From positions 1 through 45,709 of IMG/VR virus record IMGVR_UViG_3300049911_000019: DNA of 45,709 nt, one strand, 5' to 3'. Positions 2,610 through 45,582 of this stretch are shown here, piece after piece. Within the stretch, counting starts at the first letter, position 1. Every line of letters starts with the position of its first letter. Under the pieces are notes generated by a model. That model made no database searches and was not told the DNA's origin. It saw only the letters and a program-made list of their open reading frames with translations. Both the position numbers and the translations under genes were made by a program. The stretch comes from a virus.

Positions 2610-2986
2610 CCCTATCCACAGACCGAGTAGCCGCGGGAAAACTTCTGACCCAGTATCTTCGAGATATTGGTAACGAGACCGAGACGATAATCGTTGACGG
2701 CCAGCCGTATGTCGCGTCTAAAGCAGAAGTACTATCGAGGCGACTTTGGTTAATGGCCAACGGCGGGACAGAGGAATTTACCGATGCCGATGGAGTAGTC
2801 CAGAAACGAGTATATACACCCGACCGAAAGGTTATGGAACTGGTATTCACCCGCATCGAAGGCCGACCGGCCCAGGCCGCCCAGGAGGGCGGACCCGAAC
2901 GCGCCCGTCGGGCCGGGAAGTTCGATTCGGGGGTGGGTAACAGATTAAACGAGGAGTATGAGCCGGAACCCGAACAAGGTGTGTAG
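2606..2986 (+). CDS. Putative small terminase subunit or related packaging protein
   Basis: The start at ATG 2606 follows GGAGG by 5 bases and overlaps the previous stop. The 126-residue product is mainly helical, with a charged Ala/Gly/Arg-rich C-terminal tail. No diagnostic HTH can be named. Its place just before the large terminase, interrupted only by an HNH gene, suggests the DNA-recognition subunit of the packaging motor. That role rests on synteny only. Confidence 0.5.
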   Translation: MTLSTDRVAAGKLLTQYLRDIGNETETIIVDGQPYVASKAEVLSRRLWLMANGGTEEFTDADGVVQKRVYTPDRKVMELVFTRIEGRPAQAAQEGGPERARRAGKFDSGVGNRLNEEYEPEPEQGV

Positions 2987-3434
2987 GAAATGTAAGATAG
3001 AAAAACCCGTCGCCGAGTTTTATAAAGAAGAACGATGCAGGGATGGGTTTGCGGGTACGTGTAAATTGTGTACAGAAAAACGACGCCGAGAGTATAGACT
3101 TACTCATAAAAAAGAACACGCTGTCCGCGATAGGATATATTTGGATAAACCAGGGGTACGGGAGAAACGTAGATTTGACACCCTTAAACGAAAATATGGG
3201 ATAACCAAGGAACGGTTTGACAGACTATTCAAGTTACAAGAGGGAGTGTGTGCAATATGTGGCGGGGTCAATATACCAGGATTAAAACACGGCGTTCTGG
3301 CCGTAGACCACGACCACAAAATTGGCAACGTTAGAGGGCTTTTATGTGATAGGTGCAATAGAGTTTTAGGTTTCACACAGGATTCAAAGGGACTGTTAGC
3401 AAAAATGATTGGATACCTTGATAGGCATGAGTAG
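2958..3434 (+). CDS. Endonuclease VII-like HNH nuclease
   Basis: The N-terminal zinc ribbon has CxxC at residues 9-12 followed by a second CxxC (GTCKLC). A central CAICG and the catalytic block LAVDHDHKIGNVRGLLCDRC match the recombination endonuclease VII family (HNH, beta-beta-alpha-metal). Members resolve branched DNA before packaging, and others behave as free-standing homing endonucleases. The gene overlaps its upstream neighbour by 29 bases and its stop overlaps the terminase ATG. It is inserted between the presumed small and the large terminase genes, a common place for HNH genes that assist packaging. Confidence 0.85.
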   Translation: MSRNPNKVCRKCKIEKPVAEFYKEERCRDGFAGTCKLCTEKRRREYRLTHKKEHAVRDRIYLDKPGVREKRRFDTLKRKYGITKERFDRLFKLQEGVCAICGGVNIPGLKHGVLAVDHDHKIGNVRGLLCDRCNRVLGFTQDSKGLLAKMIGYLDRHE

Positions 3435-31933: not shown

Positions 31934-32072
31934 TTGATTCCTTCCATAGTTTTTGTACCATTGCCCGTACTTCGGGTCTCTGGCATAGGCATAACATCTG
32001 GACTATACAGCCTGAACATTTCTTCATATCCAAATTGTCACAGTCTTCGGTCGGGACTTCGGTACATTTCAT
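31887..32072 (-). CDS. Cysteine-rich small protein, 61 aa
   Basis: ATG 32072, overlapping the polymerase stop by 4 bases. Six cysteines, including CSGC and CLC, suggest metal binding. The second half is basic (VQKLWKESNEPKMVKNIR). Coupled to the polymerase gene; role unknown. Confidence 0.65.
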   Translation of the reverse strand: MKCTEVPTEDCDNLDMKKCSGCIVQMLCLCQRPEVRAMVQKLWKESNEPKMVKNIRAPGGK

Positions 32073-34150
32073 TTACAATACACCAAACTTTCTTTAACCT
32101 CAGCGGCCACAGGTAAACCCGACGCCCACTCAGGTATAGTACACAGTATTTGATTCAGTTTGTCAAGAGAAATCTTGGAATTATTTTTATTTATTTGGCA
32201 CACAACTTCGTCGTGAACGTGTAAAATCACGGGGAGACCGGCGTCTTCGCAGGCCAATATCCAAAAGCCGAGTAAATCCCTCGAAATTGCCTGGTCTATA
32301 TTTTCCGTCAGGCTACCCCCCCATAAACTCTCCCTCTTAGGACCAGCTAAATATGATATATTTCCGCCGTTCTTAATACTACATTGTCGATAATATAGTA
32401 TTCGGCCTGACGGTAATTTAATCTGAACTTCATGGCCGGTGCACGAAAACTCTATCTGCCCCACTTTAGGCCGTAAATGCGGGAACCGTAGTGCCTGTTT
32501 GAACGCGGTCTCTACGACTCTCCAATATGCGGGAATCTTAGAATACTTTGTTCGGTATAGGTCAACCACTCGTTGTATGAATTGTCGGTTGTATTGTCCG
32601 CTGTCGAAGAAAGGACGTAAATAACTATCTTGTAAACATTGTTGATAGAATTTATCGACGCCCATCCCATAACCTAAACCCAGAATACTTTTCTTGCCAA
32701 AGGCCCGTTTAATCATTAGCATTAAATAGATTATAGGCGGGTCGGTTTTACGTTCCTTTCGTACGGGGAGTTTGAATAAAACTGTTGCAAATTCAGAATA
32801 AACATCCTTGCCAGTTCTAAATGCCTCTACCAAATCGTCCTGACCGGCCAACCAAGCCAGTACACGGGCCTCAATCTGAGCCGAGTCCCCAATCCCTAAC
32901 GTGAAGTTGGCGGGAGCGCGAAGTAGGCCGCGTATCTTGCCTATCAGGGGGTCAATCGTTGCACTTTTTCCGCCTAAATTCTGTAAGTTAATCCCCTCCC
33001 CGCCACTCCATCGGCCAGTATGGCCTCCATAATAATTCAAAGGCGTTCGCAGTATCCCCCCATTCGCGGCGGACTGCTTCTCCATACTCGTTATGCGTTT
33101 CGTATGCAGGGGCCACGACTTCACGGCCTGTCTCGCGGTCATTAAATCACGGACAATCGGATTTCCGTGGACCGTCAGCGACTTCGCATAATCGTCAGTC
33201 TTGGCCAGGGCTGCGATGTTCCCACGTTTGCCGGCCTTCCATTCGACCTGTTCGTCTTGGGTCTGGAGTAATTTCACAAACGTATCCCCACGGAGGTCCG
33301 TGGCGGCGGCCTCGCGGGCTTCCTCTTTAATCATTATATCAACGATTTCGTCTGATTTCCCGTCGAATTTTTTAGGAACCTTTTTACCGTCCCAGAAATA
33401 CTTATTATACAATCGGCCATAATTCTCATCAACCAACCCCGTTTTATTCACGGCCTCGATGGTCAAGGCGTACATCTGAACCTTAAGCGAATCGGCCAAG
33501 TCCTGGTCAAAATCGAACCCCCGATGGAGCCACATATCGAGAGTATGACGCATTAACCGTAACTCGAAGGCTGGGTTAGATAATTTTGGTAACAGTATCT
33601 TAAATAATTTTGTTTCAAGGTCCACGTCGTTAAGACAATAATCGGCCAATGCCTTTCGCTGTTCCAGGGTCATGGCGTTGTAGTGCAGACCCTTGAAATC
33701 CTGGGTCTCGCCCTTCGCCTGTAGGCCAAATTCTTTGGCCATATCCTTTAGTTTGTGGCTTGCACTGGCGTCGTAATGGGCATATAAATCTTTAACGTCG
33801 ATTATATATTTGGGCACGATTCCGAATTTTGTCTGGAGAACGGTCACGTCGAATCTTGCATTTTGGATAATCCAAGTTACTGTATCGCCATATCTCTTAA
33901 ACATTCCGGCTATTATGCCAGGAATGTCTCGGTCCGCTCCGGCGAAAATAGGCGGCAAACCTGGCGATTGCCAACCCACTCCCGTCAACTCGAACCGCGG
34001 GTCGCTAATATATTCTATGGTCGACAGGCCAACGGCATCGGCGGCGTCCTTGCGGAAGTGGTAGTCTTCGTCGAAATACGATTCAAAATCCAGAACGAGG
34101 ATTTCGGTCGGGTATCCGCAATCAGTAAGTATCTGTTGCCAGGATTCCAT
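32069..34150 (-). CDS. DNA polymerase, family A, with 3'-5' exonuclease
   Basis: 693 residues. Exonuclease: D21-F-E23, N97...F100-D101 and D170-Y171...D175 (ExoI, II, III). Polymerase: motif A with Asp422 in GIGDSAQIEARVLAWLAG; motif B R482-x3-K486-x3-L490-G-x2-Y494-G; motif C HVHDEV (D647-E648). Position 490, equivalent to Phe762 of E. coli Pol I, is leucine. The length and lack of an N-terminal 5'-nuclease match phage T7-like replicative enzymes. The start overlaps the upstream gene as TAATG. Confidence 0.93.
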   Translation of the reverse strand: MESWQQILTDCGYPTEILVLDFESYFDEDYHFRKDAADAVGLSTIEYISDPRFELTGVGWQSPGLPPIFAGADRDIPGIIAGMFKRYGDTVTWIIQNARFDVTVLQTKFGIVPKYIIDVKDLYAHYDASASHKLKDMAKEFGLQAKGETQDFKGLHYNAMTLEQRKALADYCLNDVDLETKLFKILLPKLSNPAFELRLMRHTLDMWLHRGFDFDQDLADSLKVQMYALTIEAVNKTGLVDENYGRLYNKYFWDGKKVPKKFDGKSDEIVDIMIKEEAREAAATDLRGDTFVKLLQTQDEQVEWKAGKRGNIAALAKTDDYAKSLTVHGNPIVRDLMTARQAVKSWPLHTKRITSMEKQSAANGGILRTPLNYYGGHTGRWSGGEGINLQNLGGKSATIDPLIGKIRGLLRAPANFTLGIGDSAQIEARVLAWLAGQDDLVEAFRTGKDVYSEFATVLFKLPVRKERKTDPPIIYLMLMIKRAFGKKSILGLGYGMGVDKFYQQCLQDSYLRPFFDSGQYNRQFIQRVVDLYRTKYSKIPAYWRVVETAFKQALRFPHLRPKVGQIEFSCTGHEVQIKLPSGRILYYRQCSIKNGGNISYLAGPKRESLWGGSLTENIDQAISRDLLGFWILACEDAGLPVILHVHDEVVCQINKNNSKISLDKLNQILCTIPEWASGLPVAAEVKESLVYCK

Positions 34151-37660: not shown

Positions 37661-39634
37661 TTACGCGACACCCACCAAATCAAGTTTCAGATATTTAATT
37701 TCCAACATTTTACGGAGTCCATTATACTCTGGCAAATCCAACTTGTCAACAACAATCTTCGCTAATTCTCTTGCTTTTAATAATAATTCGTAATCATCCA
37801 CCAGACTCGCAAACTTTAAATCAGGCAACCCGTGTTGTTTCGTCGAGAATAATTCGCCCGGCCCCCTCAGTCTCAGGTCGGCCTCGGCTATCTCGAAGCC
37901 GTCGTTTGTTTGCTCCAGCGTTCGGAGCCGGGCGATTGACGTATCGTTGGCGGTGGAGGCCATTAGAAAACAGAACGCTGTTTCAGTTGACCTGCATATT
38001 CTACCCCTTAATTGATGCAGTTGGGACAGGCCAAACCTATCAGCCCCCTCTATAAGCATGACCGTGGCGTTCGAGCAGTCAAGGCCCACCTCGGCGATAA
38101 CTGTACTAACGAGGATTTTATATTCACCGGACTTAAACTTTCGTAGGGTATCCGTTTTAACTTCACTGGTATCTTTACCCGTCAAACTGGCAACGGAATA
38201 ATCAGCGAATCGCCGGGCTATATCACAGTATCCATCGGCCACGCCGGTCATATCTTCCTCGCCACTTGCAATACGAGGATAGACAACATAAATCTGATGG
38301 CCCTGTTTAAGTTGTTCGTCAATCAATTCGTAAACGCCTTCACGGCGGTCTGGTAGTACCCAACGGGCCACGACGGCCCCACGCTTAATTGGCATTTCCT
38401 TGATAGTTGATACATCCAGGTCGCCGAAAACCGTGAGGGCGATTGTGCGAGGGATGGGGGTCGCGCTCATAAGTAAAACGTGTGGGTTGCCATACTTCTG
38501 GAGCAAGGCACGTTGGGCCACGCCGAATTTCTGCTGCTCGTCGATTATGACGAGGGACGCTTTCGTTAATAATTCTATATCGCATAACAGGGCGGTTGTT
38601 CCTATACATACTCCCCGCTTGCGATGACACTCGGCTTTATTTTCATAGCCGCCGATAAACAATTCCACATCGTCCCATCCGTAAGATTTCAAAACATCGT
38701 AGTGCTGGGAGGCCAAAATTGTCGTGGGACAAAGTATAATCGCCCGCTTATTATTCAGGGCCGTAAGCATCGCCGCGTAGAACGCAACAGCCGTCTTGCC
38801 TGAGCTAACGTCACCGTGGAGGAGGCGGTTCATCGGTTTATTTGATAGATACAAGTCCCTAAGAATATCTCGGAGAGCGGCATCTTGGTCGCTGGTAAAT
38901 TTATAAGGAAAATAGTGCTTTATCTTGTCCTCTAAATCGCACTCTTTAGAGTGACTATATTCATATTTTTTGCCAGGCGTATGTTCCTGTTGCCGTCTCT
39001 TGATTGCGACAGCCATCTGCTGTAGATAGAGTTCGTCGTACCGGAGCCGTTCCAGCCCATCTTCTAATTGTTGCTTGTTCTCCGGGAAATGCAGGAAATA
39101 AAAAGCGTCCGCCCGGTCATACAGGTCGGGGTTAATCCAATCAGGTATCTCAACATCCGCCAGCACCGCCCTCAACGCCGCCCGAATCGTCTGTGTGTAT
39201 TTACCATATAAACCGCCTGTTATCTCATCCGGCTTAAATGCACAGGTCGAAAACTTAGGCCCGGAAAACTGGGGCTGTCCTTTGTACTCTGATACTTTAC
39301 CCCATACGGCAATCAGCATCCCTTTTCGGATGTTATTTAGAAGCCAAACTTGGTTGAAAAATACCAATTCAACCTTCCCGGTCTCGTCTTCAACCATGAC
39401 TGAAACGATGGGGGCCTGCGTTGGTCGCCTGAAACAGGATATGACCCTACCTTGTATCAACGCCTGTTCCCCAACACAGAGGTCGCGGATGGGGGTTGTG
39501 CCGGGGAAAATCCAGTCGGAGGGCTTGTGTTCGAGGAGGTCGCCGACTGTAGTTACACCGAGACCCGCGAGTTCCTTCGCCCGGACGGGGCCGACGCCGC
39601 GCACTGCTTGAATTTTGGTTCGCCAATTATACAC
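37661..39634 (-). CDS. recG: RecG-like DNA helicase
   Basis: 657 residues, the full RecG layout. A helix-hairpin wedge start (VRGVGPVRAKELAGLG) and an OB domain (VEDETGKVELVFFNQVWLL) precede the superfamily 2 core: Walker A LHGDVSSGKTAVAFYAAML, DEQQ (RecG usually DEQH), LLMSATPIPRT and motif VI QLHQLRGRICRS (usually RGRVGRG, so the second Gly is Cys). It remodels stalled forks and D-loops and can replace T4 UvsW function. A phage gene of this kind is unusual. It ends one base before the homing gene. Confidence 0.9.
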   Translation of the reverse strand: MYNWRTKIQAVRGVGPVRAKELAGLGVTTVGDLLEHKPSDWIFPGTTPIRDLCVGEQALIQGRVISCFRRPTQAPIVSVMVEDETGKVELVFFNQVWLLNNIRKGMLIAVWGKVSEYKGQPQFSGPKFSTCAFKPDEITGGLYGKYTQTIRAALRAVLADVEIPDWINPDLYDRADAFYFLHFPENKQQLEDGLERLRYDELYLQQMAVAIKRRQQEHTPGKKYEYSHSKECDLEDKIKHYFPYKFTSDQDAALRDILRDLYLSNKPMNRLLHGDVSSGKTAVAFYAAMLTALNNKRAIILCPTTILASQHYDVLKSYGWDDVELFIGGYENKAECHRKRGVCIGTTALLCDIELLTKASLVIIDEQQKFGVAQRALLQKYGNPHVLLMSATPIPRTIALTVFGDLDVSTIKEMPIKRGAVVARWVLPDRREGVYELIDEQLKQGHQIYVVYPRIASGEEDMTGVADGYCDIARRFADYSVASLTGKDTSEVKTDTLRKFKSGEYKILVSTVIAEVGLDCSNATVMLIEGADRFGLSQLHQLRGRICRSTETAFCFLMASTANDTSIARLRTLEQTNDGFEIAEADLRLRGPGELFSTKQHGLPDLKFASLVDDYELLLKARELAKIVVDKLDLPEYNGLRKMLEIKYLKLDLVGVA

Positions 39635-39926: not shown

Positions 39927-40301
39927 TCAAAACCTCTCCACCACCCGGCTATCGCAGCCGGGCGTATAACCGTGTGTTTCAGATTTAGGGGCCACAAAAC
40001 CGTTGGCCTCTAAAACCACAATTATTCCCCGGACAGTGCTTTCCGGTATGTCAGTCAACGATGCAATCGTTGTGGAGTTCGTCTGCCCACCCCGTATCAG
40101 GGCTAATATCAGTTTTTGCCGGGTATTAAGCACGGGCGAAAGCTGGGGGGCCTTACGCCGGACACTGTTCAAATGCCGGAGGACAATTTCCCGGCTAATC
40201 CCCAGCTTCTTTGCGGCCTGGTCGATGGGGAGGCCGTCAAAATCGGGATGGCATAGCCGGTAAATTTCTTCTTCACGTCGTGTAATAAGTCGTTTAGCCA
40301 T
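39927..40301 (-). CDS. Transcriptional regulator with two HTH domains
   Basis: 124 residues. The first half has a sigma region 4/LuxR-like HTH (IDQAAKKLGISREIVLRHLN). The second half is a winged HTH (NTRQKLILALIRGG, then TTIASLTDIPESTVRGIIVV). AGGGG precedes the ATG. It is the only clear DNA-binding regulator in the early arm and could control the late switch or act as a sigma-appropriator-type factor. Target unknown. Confidence 0.75.
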   Translation of the reverse strand: MAKRLITRREEEIYRLCHPDFDGLPIDQAAKKLGISREIVLRHLNSVRRKAPQLSPVLNTRQKLILALIRGGQTNSTTIASLTDIPESTVRGIIVVLEANGFVAPKSETHGYTPGCDSRVVERF

Positions 40302-40392: not shown

Positions 40393-40578
40393 TTAGATAG
40401 AGGTTTGTTTGTTATCTAATCGCTTAACTTGTTTCTTGGATTCGTTAAGTATAAACAAAACTTCTCGCCGAGTTGCCAGATAAATACGCCTCAGATTGCG
40501 GTGTCCGTATGTACATTGCCACCCCCGAACAATACTCCGGGCGTCTTGGTCAATCTGTGCTTTGGGGAGGAGTTTCAT
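40393..40578 (-). CDS. Small basic hypothetical protein, 61 aa
   Basis: ATG 40578 overlaps the upstream stop as ATGA, so translation is probably coupled to the heptad-repeat gene; a GTG two codons earlier is an alternative. Sequence begins MKLLPKAQIDQDARSIV and ends in a Lys-rich tail. No family. A gap of 91 bases to the HTH gene follows, with only an imperfect hairpin. Confidence 0.55.
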   Translation of the reverse strand: MKLLPKAQIDQDARSIVRGWQCTYGHRNLRRIYLATRREVLFILNESKKQVKRLDNKQTSI

Positions 40579-41102
40579 TTCCACGCCCCGGCCCGGTATT
40601 TAATATCCGCAAAAACGTCCCAAAAAATTCTGGCGTATGCCTTCTGCCACTCAGTGCCTGTCTTCTGCCGCTCGGCGTATGTCTTCTGCCGCTTGGCGTA
40701 TGCCTTCTGCCACTCGGCGTCTGCCTTCTGCCGCTCGGCGTATGTCTTCTGCCACTCGGCGTCTACCTTCTGCCACTCGGTGTCTGCCTTCTGCCACTCG
40801 GCGTCTGCCTTACATTTACTCTTATGTCTTTTTTTCCCTTTTTGAGATAACAAACCCGCAACCATACGCTCTGTTACCCCAAACTCGGCCATATCCCCGG
40901 CCTTAATCGCGGCAACCAGTTCAGGTGGGAAATTATCAGGCGTTGAAAAATCCTCACACTCCCTATGGCGCATTGTTACGGGGTCTATGCTATGGTAAAA
41001 CGCAATAGCAGAATGGCCCCAATACTCGGTCGGGTCATTATTGCAGTGTTTCTGCGTTAATTTTCCCTGTTCGGTGTGGTAAATCTCTTTAGCTGTGACC
41101 AC
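40575..41102 (-). CDS. Protein with heptad repeats (AEWQKAY-type), at least 175 aa
   Basis: The listed start is GTG at 41102. The frame stays open upstream to 41183 with coding-like sequence (NPICERYSWGKKEVNGK); ATT preceded by AGGG is a candidate start. The middle has a DPVTMRHRECEDFSTPDNF motif. Near the C-terminus at least eight tandem 7-residue repeats of the type ADAEWQK form a probable coiled coil, followed by AYARIFWDVFADIKYR. Function unknown. Confidence 0.6.
   Translation of the reverse strand: MVTAKEIYHTEQGKLTQKHCNNDPTEYWGHSAIAFYHSIDPVTMRHRECEDFSTPDNFPPELVAAIKAGDMAEFGVTERMVAGLLSQKGKKRHKSKCKADAEWQKADTEWQKVDAEWQKTYAERQKADAEWQKAYAKRQKTYAERQKTGTEWQKAYARIFWDVFADIKYRAGAWK
40633..40809. 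repeat. 21-bp minisatellite coding heptad repeats
   Basis: At least eight near-perfect 21-base units, in frame with the 40575-41102 gene. Each codes for ADAEWQK-type heptads (variants ADTEWQK, VDAEWQK, TYAERQK, AYAKRQK, TGTEWQK). The units differ by single bases, typical of slippage and recombination, so the copy number may vary. Confidence 0.9.
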
Positions 41103-44286: not shown

Positions 44287-44673
44287 TTATTTTTTACGTC
44301 GCGTTCGGGGGCTGATATATGCCCGGTAATACGACCGGCGATACTGTGCGTTGCAGGGTTTGCAGTATCCCGGCTTCTTAAAAAAATCAGCCAGAGGTTT
44401 AACTATTCGGCACCGGGGACAATAGCGGGTATCTGGCGGGGTCGCCGGCACGGGGGCCGGGTCGTCTATTGTATCGCCTAAATAGATATGCGCCGTTTGC
44501 CTGCCGTCAATTCGCGGGTATCGCAACTTACAGCCGCTTACCGCGACAACCAAGCGGCTGAATTTACGGCGGGACAGGCCGGGGTAGTCAGTGTTATACC
44601 AATTATACAGGTCGGCCATTGCCCATTCTTGATTTAGCCGGTATCGCTCTAAAAAATCTCTTATCTTATCCAT
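44287..44673 (-). CDS. Winged-helix-like protein with C-terminal zinc ribbon, 128 aa
   Basis: ATG 44673 lies inside the upstream gene, after GAGAAAGG. The N-terminal 70 residues (EWAMADLYNWYNTDYPGLSR, then FSRLVVAVSG) parallel both the preceding gene and the winged-helix end of the primase-helicase (FLYELWRWWCKREG...). The C-terminal CPRCRIVKPLADFFKK with CKPC is a zinc ribbon like that of the HNH gene. A DNA-binding early regulator or origin factor is plausible. Confidence 0.7.
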   Translation of the reverse strand: MDKIRDFLERYRLNQEWAMADLYNWYNTDYPGLSRRKFSRLVVAVSGCKLRYPRIDGRQTAHIYLGDTIDDPAPVPATPPDTRYCPRCRIVKPLADFFKKPGYCKPCNAQYRRSYYRAYISPRTRRKK

Positions 44674-44909
44674 ACGGCCTTTCTCTGTTTTCCGTCCATC
44701 CTTCGACGGGAGGACCGTAAATTCGTATGGCCATAGAGCATCCGGGCAAAACTCCCTGCTGTGCGGCCCAGGGGATAGTCCGGCGCGTAGGCGAGCCATA
44801 GCTGAAACAAATCAACGACAGCATATTCCCGTGGCTTTTCAAGGCCGTCGATAAATTCTTGAATAAATTTATCATTTGATTTTGCGGGTTCGATTTTTTC
44901 ACCTAACAT
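44661..44909 (-). CDS. First early gene, winged-helix-like paralog, 82 aa
   Basis: AGGAGA lies 8 bases before the ATG at 44909, and the consensus promoter 44951-44979 is 40 bases upstream. The middle (YAVVDLFQLWLAYAPDYPLG, then GSFARMLYGH, then RRMDGKQRKAV) aligns with the next gene's first domain, so the two are tandem paralogs. No zinc ribbon. Being first to be made, it may be a host-takeover or replication-control protein. Confidence 0.65.
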   Translation of the reverse strand: MLGEKIEPAKSNDKFIQEFIDGLEKPREYAVVDLFQLWLAYAPDYPLGRTAGSFARMLYGHTNLRSSRRRMDGKQRKAVWIR

Positions 44910-44950
44910 AAATAATCTCCTAACATAAATCATTCAATTTAATTTCCTGT

Positions 44951-44979: not shown

Positions 44980-45013
44980 GGATTAAATTGAGTATAGCAG
45001 GGACGGGACCGGG

Positions 45014-45056
45014 GTATGGCAGCGGTATAGGTAAACGCTATACTCGCCTTGCCATA
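45014..45056. repeat. Long imperfect palindrome
   Basis: Outer arms TATGGC (45015-45020) and GCCATA (45051-45056), and inner arms GTATAG (45025-45030) and CTATAC (45038-45043), give a nested dyad of about 42 bases. Possible binding site for a dimeric initiator or repressor. Confidence 0.6.
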
Positions 45057-45444
45057 AATTCCCGTCTAATAATTCAGGAATACGGTTTTTGGTATAGATA
45101 GTATAGTATTGTATAGTATTATATAGATAACTTAGAGAATGCAATAATAATGTATATCATAGTTTATACATTGTACAAAAAAATAATGTAAAAAATAGTG
45201 ATAGTCATATTCTATGGGGTAAGCGTATAAGCCAAAATGTCGTACATTGCCATACTCACTATTCCAACTCGTTATAACACAACAGTTTACGTTCTGTACT
45301 CACCCTACACATACCTATACCCCTTTTTTACCCTTCTATACTCACCTATACGCCGCCCTCAATATCAATTCAAAAACGCAGTATGCCAATATAGGTTATG
45401 AGGCCGGGGGGTGGGGCGGGGTGGAGGACGCTCCCAAGCCCGGC

Positions 45445-45486
45445 AATGTAAGGTTTACTTTACATAATGTAAGGTTTACTTTACAT
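45445..45486. promoter_or_regulatory. Tandem pair of 21-bp palindromic operators
   Basis: Two identical 21-base units, exactly adjacent (45445-45465 and 45466-45486). Each has arms ATGTAA and TTACAT around an 8-base centre. The two-turn spacing puts both sites on the same helix face, the layout of a cooperative repressor operator. Confidence 0.8.
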
Positions 45487-45582
45487 TTAGGCCATATTAA
45501 ATCAAAAACGCCACTTTTAATTACGCCGTAAATGCCCCAGGATTCAATTCAATACCCCGGTGGGTATAAATGGAGGGGGCCG

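Follow-up and report, generated by a model that had tools for sequence, protein, structure and literature searches.

The first two genes of the early leftward unit of this phage encode small proteins, P0001 and P0002, that have one domain in common; we tentatively read them as early winged-helix regulators, of the fold class found in the tails of primase-helicases, that may time replication initiation and early transcription at the adjacent control region, a reading that falls a little short of probable. What we computed concerns the reality of the genes, their common domain, its predicted fold, the resemblance of that fold to the helicase tail, the promoter and the repeats. The predicted helicase-tail fold of the first two early genes suggests a control of the onset of DNA copying or of early expression.

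The window, i.e., the whole stretch of 45,709 nucleotides analysed here, is an IMG/VR phage record with a terminal repeat of 127 bp, which implies a 45,582-bp genome, circular or permuted. The genes between about 1 kb and 24.2 kb point rightward; those in the remainder, as far back as the control region, point leftward. The start of the early leftward unit comprises the following features:

44661-44909, minus strand: P0001, first early gene, 82 aa, with a single domain at residues 13-82
44287-44673, minus strand: P0002, second early gene, 128 aa, its start codon lying within the 3' end of P0001
44951-44979, minus strand: sigma-70 promoter, a perfect TTGACA-17-TATAAT whose -10 is preceded by TG
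44917-44921, minus strand: Shine-Dalgarno AGGAG, 7 nt ahead of the ATG of P0001
45619-45635, minus strand: terminator of the preceding leftward gene, kept in the relative

The relative in question is IMGVR 3300047198_000009. The original prediction had these genes follow the strongest promoter, and this agrees with what we found: the promoter at 44979-44951(-) matches extended sigma-70 at 12/12 positions, one of only two matches of this kind in the genome (n=2) and the sole intergenic one; it is kept in the relative, and P0001 and P0002 are genes 1 and 2 of the leftward unit that it opens. An AGGAG likewise lies upstream of the P0001 start in the relative, where the start itself is kept. The second perfect TTGACA-17-TATAAT in the window, at 37749-37721(-), falls within the 3' end of a RecG-like gene.

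Both P0001 and P0002 can be taken as real genes, since the relative carries them in tandem in the same order, with identities of 65% for P0001 and 55% for P0002, and since the dN/dS of the window against the relative is 0.20 and 0.19, respectively, i.e., purifying selection. Judged from these alignments, the pair is older than the split of the two phages. The two genes overlap by 13 nt, an arrangement that may reflect translational coupling, and both encode basic proteins (pI 9.8-9.9). Between 43000 and 45582, dS to the relative is 1.3-1.8 for the pair versus 0.3-0.5 for several neighbouring genes, a difference that suggests mosaic exchange.

Scans of IMG/VR and GTDB found relatives of the pair in one other phage and in a second assembly of the same virus only, and phage and plasmid collections gave matches to the zinc ribbon of P0002 alone; weak ORF matches in other contigs were short, attributable to chance and discarded. 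Ten other contigs with related helicases, mostly fragments, were searched for the pair, which was in none of them (0/10); it is thus not essential to this helicase type. Scans against Pfam and PHROG recognised only the zinc ribbon, a PDB sequence search with both families returned nothing credible, and the literature searched held nothing direct on proteins of precisely this kind. The window holds no Rfam family and no tRNA.

That the two genes are tandem paralogs, as first proposed from the letters alone, is well borne out. P0001 and P0002 align over one common domain of 62-66 residues (BLASTP E 2e-6, 27% identity), and hhalign, once the orthologues were added, gave E 1.4e-6 with a score of 35.5; the 169 control segments taken from these two phages scored 16.5 at most. 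The motif initially noticed (DL..W, YP, F.R.L, R, DG.Q) is visible in the alignment of the four sequences, in which I, D, L, Y, P, G, F, R, G, and Q are invariant.

The resemblance of this domain to the C-terminus of the SF3 helicase of the same phage was also part of the original prediction, and structure prediction was run on P0002 and on the helicase tail, using these segments:

44476-44673, minus strand: winged-helix domain of P0002, residues 1-66 (AlphaFold2)
44536-44571, minus strand: third helix of P0002, residues 35-46, predicted recognition helix
24749-24973, minus strand: tail of the SF3 primase-helicase P0003, residues 667-741, comparison domain

The AlphaFold2 model of P0002 (pLDDT about 78-89 over residues 1-60) runs H2-10, E15-18, H19-29, H35-46, and wing strands up to E62-65, followed by the ribbon and a basic helix; this helix-strand-helix-helix-strand-strand order with a wing is that of a winged helix. 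Both phages have identical residues 31-38 (PGLSRRKF) at the beginning of the third helix. P0001 is predicted to be a winged helix as well by its homology to P0002. For P0003, the model of residues 633-752 gave H35-43, E44-53, H54-68, H75-85, E90-96, and E99-109, again a winged helix, with an order of elements identical to that of P0002; one has to keep in mind that likeness is judged here by element order and common structural matches. With Foldseek against viral structures (BFVD), 13 of the top 50 matches were common to P0002 and the P0003 tail, which places P0002, by its fold neighbours, with the D5/P4 primase-helicase tail class; among these common neighbours are several phage primases and short free-standing proteins. 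A fold search of the PDB with P0002 returned generic winged helices only. The top matches were Fur-like (best E 0.026), and a Fur-type regulator was considered and rejected: with an rmsd of about 8-16 A in nearly all cases, these matches are whole-chain artefacts.

At the level of sequence, the link to the tails is fainter and depends on pooling. The P0001 family reached E 0.001 against eight near tails, above 169/169 controls. When twelve cultured-phage primases were added to the near tails to make a deeper set, the four small proteins pooled gave E 8e-5, above 291/291 control segments and 200 column shuffles; the P0001 family alone gave E 0.0012, a value reached by 3/291 controls, and the profile of the P0002 domain alone was not significant. 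The proposed resemblance to the SF3 tail thus holds for fold order, for the 13/50 structural matches and for the pooled profile, and not for the P0002 domain on its own. Common descent of the small proteins and the helicase tails within a winged-helix class is probable; descent from the helicase of this very phage would be a further, putative step. Compared with the D5/P4-type SF3 tails (Pox_D5 PF03288; P4 alpha origin-binding domain), the small proteins have in common the predicted helix-strand-helix-helix-wing order, seen in P0002, the L..W and FxRxL core pattern and the structural neighbours; they differ in being free-standing, at 82 and 128 aa, without a helicase, and their sequence similarity is too weak for a Pfam match, the Pfam scan of both having returned no tail. 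Moreover, identity between the two phages is 97% in the helicase tail versus 65% and 55% in P0001 and P0002, so the small proteins need not use the sites of the helicase tail.

P0002 carries, past its winged helix, two further elements, the first of which had been likened to the zinc ribbon of an HNH protein encoded at 2958-3434:

44353-44427, minus strand: zinc ribbon of P0002, CxxC..CxxC, endonuclease VII type, residues 83-107
44290-44352, minus strand: basic C-terminal helix and tail of P0002, QYxRSYYRAYISPRTRRK, nearly invariant
2982-3071, plus strand: zinc ribbon of the HNH protein 2958-3434, for comparison

The likeness is confirmed, as P0002 and the HNH protein both match PHROGs 1035 and 2255. 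P0002 residues 83-127 match the endonuclease VII family PHROG_1035 with E 3e-6, and it could be argued from this that P0002 is a degraded or accessory endonuclease VII-type nuclease, its winged helix replacing the HNH core and P0001 serving as partner. We find this highly improbable: compared with the endonuclease VII-type arrangement, the ribbon of P0002 sits C-terminal to a winged helix and the HNH core is missing, the chain ending 21 residues past the last ribbon Cys with no HNH residues after the ribbon; P0002 does not match the HNH part of the families, and P0001 has no ribbon at all. The ribbon region is nonetheless the best-conserved part of P0002, with about 80% invariant columns against the relative in the ribbon and tail versus about 40% in the winged helix, and its four Cys are invariant in both phages. 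This conservation, together with the rank of the pair as the earliest genes behind a strong promoter, would also fit host-takeover proteins whose binding targets are the DNA or RNA polymerase of the host and in which the ribbon makes the host contact, a reading that is quite improbable given that no known takeover protein was matched in PHROGs or Pfam, save a weak match of the ribbon to a Lar-like family (E 0.035), and that homologues occur in one other phage only.

Upstream of the promoter lies the noncoding region on which the two regulators are proposed to act:

44980-45582: conserved noncoding control region, origin-like, GC 0.40 versus 0.49 for the genome
45061-45230: 150-bp windows with the highest AT content in the genome (23% GC), a candidate for an unwinding element
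45253-45345, minus strand: GTGAGTA three times (45253, 45297, 45339), with two more copies in the rest of the genome
45364-45505, minus strand: TTTTTGAWTTRAT repeats at 45364 and 45496
45445-45486: AATGTAAGGTTTACTTTACAT, two tandem 21-nt copies, found in the window only

The pair had been described as lying beside an origin-like region, and the AT-rich minimum, the repeats and a skew turning point nearby all speak for that description. The TTTTTGAWTTRAT repeats are enriched in the relative too, where four of the five copies of the core TTGAWTTRAT are in the control region; the tandem copies of AATGTAAGGTTTACTTTACAT are absent from it. Cumulative GC skew turns near 864, a position that fits a nearby origin and equally fits the switch in transcription direction. 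We have fair confidence, from base composition and repeats, that 44980-45582 is origin-like; its identity as the origin is putative. Other repeats, namely GAGTATAG and CTATAC, occur near the promoter, at 44990-45111. These last repeats, the first rank of the pair in the early unit, the distance of about 41 nt from the -10 of the 44979-44951 promoter to the start codon of P0001, and the frequent use of winged helices as repressors or activators would all suit purely transcriptional regulators of that promoter, whose likeness to tails would come from common winged-helix stock. We regard this as somewhat unlikely, the common structural neighbours being largely primase-helicases and the GTGAGTA and TTGAWTTRAT clusters lying about 270-550 bp upstream of the promoter, past the AT-rich stretch.

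The reading as regulators of both initiation and early transcription draws on better-known replication systems. P4 Cnr is a small regulator of the P4 alpha protein. It belongs to an element whose initiator has a winged-helix tail, and P0001 and P0002 are set beside it by analogy. The cnr gene controls copy number (PMC8628076); the origin-binding domain of P4 alpha has a winged-helix fold and binds the repeats at the origin (PMC4234260; PMC10516667), and dimerisation of the winged helix as a means of regulation is claimed in the title of Yeo et al. 2002, cited in PMC10516667. In pIGRK, a short in-frame version of the initiator represses replication (PMC6854812), and Odn of phage ICP1 is a phage protein with the DNA-binding domain of an initiator that acts at the same origin (PMC8263062). 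An action of P0001 and P0002 on the control region is proposed because of the analogy with P4-type tails, winged-helix pairing, pIGRK and ICP1 Odn, and the best reading would be early DNA-binding regulators working like initiator-tail regulators such as P4 Cnr.

Under this scheme, P0001 and P0002 would be the earliest proteins to appear in infection, expressed from the strongest promoter, and would bind the adjacent AT-rich, repeat-bearing control region; there they would govern when replication is initiated and early genes are transcribed, either because they occupy sites close to those that the primase-helicase uses or because they pair with its tail. In P0002, the orphan zinc ribbon together with the basic tail may hold a conserved partner, be it DNA, the helicase or RNA polymerase. 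DNA binding, target sites, origin activity, helicase pairing and the direction of regulation are what we infer here.

Comparable proteins exist in other phages. The best structural neighbour of P0002 is Pas1 of Actinoplanes phage phiAsp2 (AAT36749.1), which matches primase PHROGs 864 (E 3e-5) and 1156 (E 2e-4) in their tails, Pfam RFX (E 1e-4, below the RFX curated cut-off) and, by hhalign, the P0002 domain (E 1.4e-4); direct BLAST of P0001 against Pas1 was not significant. Pas1 would thus bridge, through these profile matches, the P0002 domain and the primase tails. Like P0002, it is a free-standing winged helix of the primase-tail/RFX type; unlike the pair, it is a single gene without a zinc ribbon, and its location differs, as it is the first gene of the phiAsp2 record, ahead of Rosebush-like genes.

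A second case is found in Efquatrovirus, where a protein of PHROG_10739 matches the P0003 tail by structure (E 1e-4) and the family profile matches the deeper tails (E 2.5e-4, above 150 shuffles); AUEF3 CO47_0147 would correspond, going by organism and length, to the structure entry X2KMF0. This tail-like gene is the first of the early operon in AUEF3, phiSHEF5, and L1, and the second in heks. It thus resembles P0001 and P0002 in its place at the start of an early operon beside a divergent intergenic region, and differs in an extra N-terminal region of about 55 residues and in having neither a tandem copy nor a zinc ribbon. Comparisons of its sequence with P0001 and P0002, BLAST against P0002 included, gave no significant match. 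PHROG_10739 proteins (L048:30387-30812 and the Efquatrovirus homologues) are labelled tail length tape measure, look winged-helix and stand at the start of an early operon. The label is probably a misannotation of these early proteins; if so, the Efquatrovirus “tape measure” early protein is more likely a DNA-binding protein, and its annotation would need correction.

Free-standing winged helices of the initiator-tail type could on this basis be recurrent early regulators, encoded first in unrelated phages with D5/P4 helicases and gating origins by competing or pairing with the tail, of which the tandem pair and its zinc ribbon would be an elaborated version; we consider a class of this breadth unlikely. 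Were it to hold, a simple rule would suffice to guess what many unnamed first early genes do in phages that have this type of helicase, whose replication origins could then be located directly, and winged-helix pairing as a P4-style control over initiation would extend to further tailed phages. The recurrent genomic position of tail-like winged helices may interest more widely.

Several other features of the two genomes deserve mention. The family A DNA polymerase of the relative (L023:11299-14226, G001) has an in-frame insert of about 288 residues that starts with Cys (CLAGHTEVLTD) and ends VHN before Cys, and that looks like an intein, going by these termini; the polymerase of the window (32069-34150) is without it. 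The window further encodes a GroES-like co-chaperonin (1048-1395), the RecG-like helicase already mentioned (37661-39634), with wedge, DEAD, and RecG C-terminal domains, and a candidate transcription switch (39927-40301), a small protein that combines a sigma-70 region 4-like segment with a second segment of helix-turn-helix type. Finally, the protein encoded at 40575-41102 contains a run of near-identical WQKADAE-type repeats, a repetition seen in the relative too.
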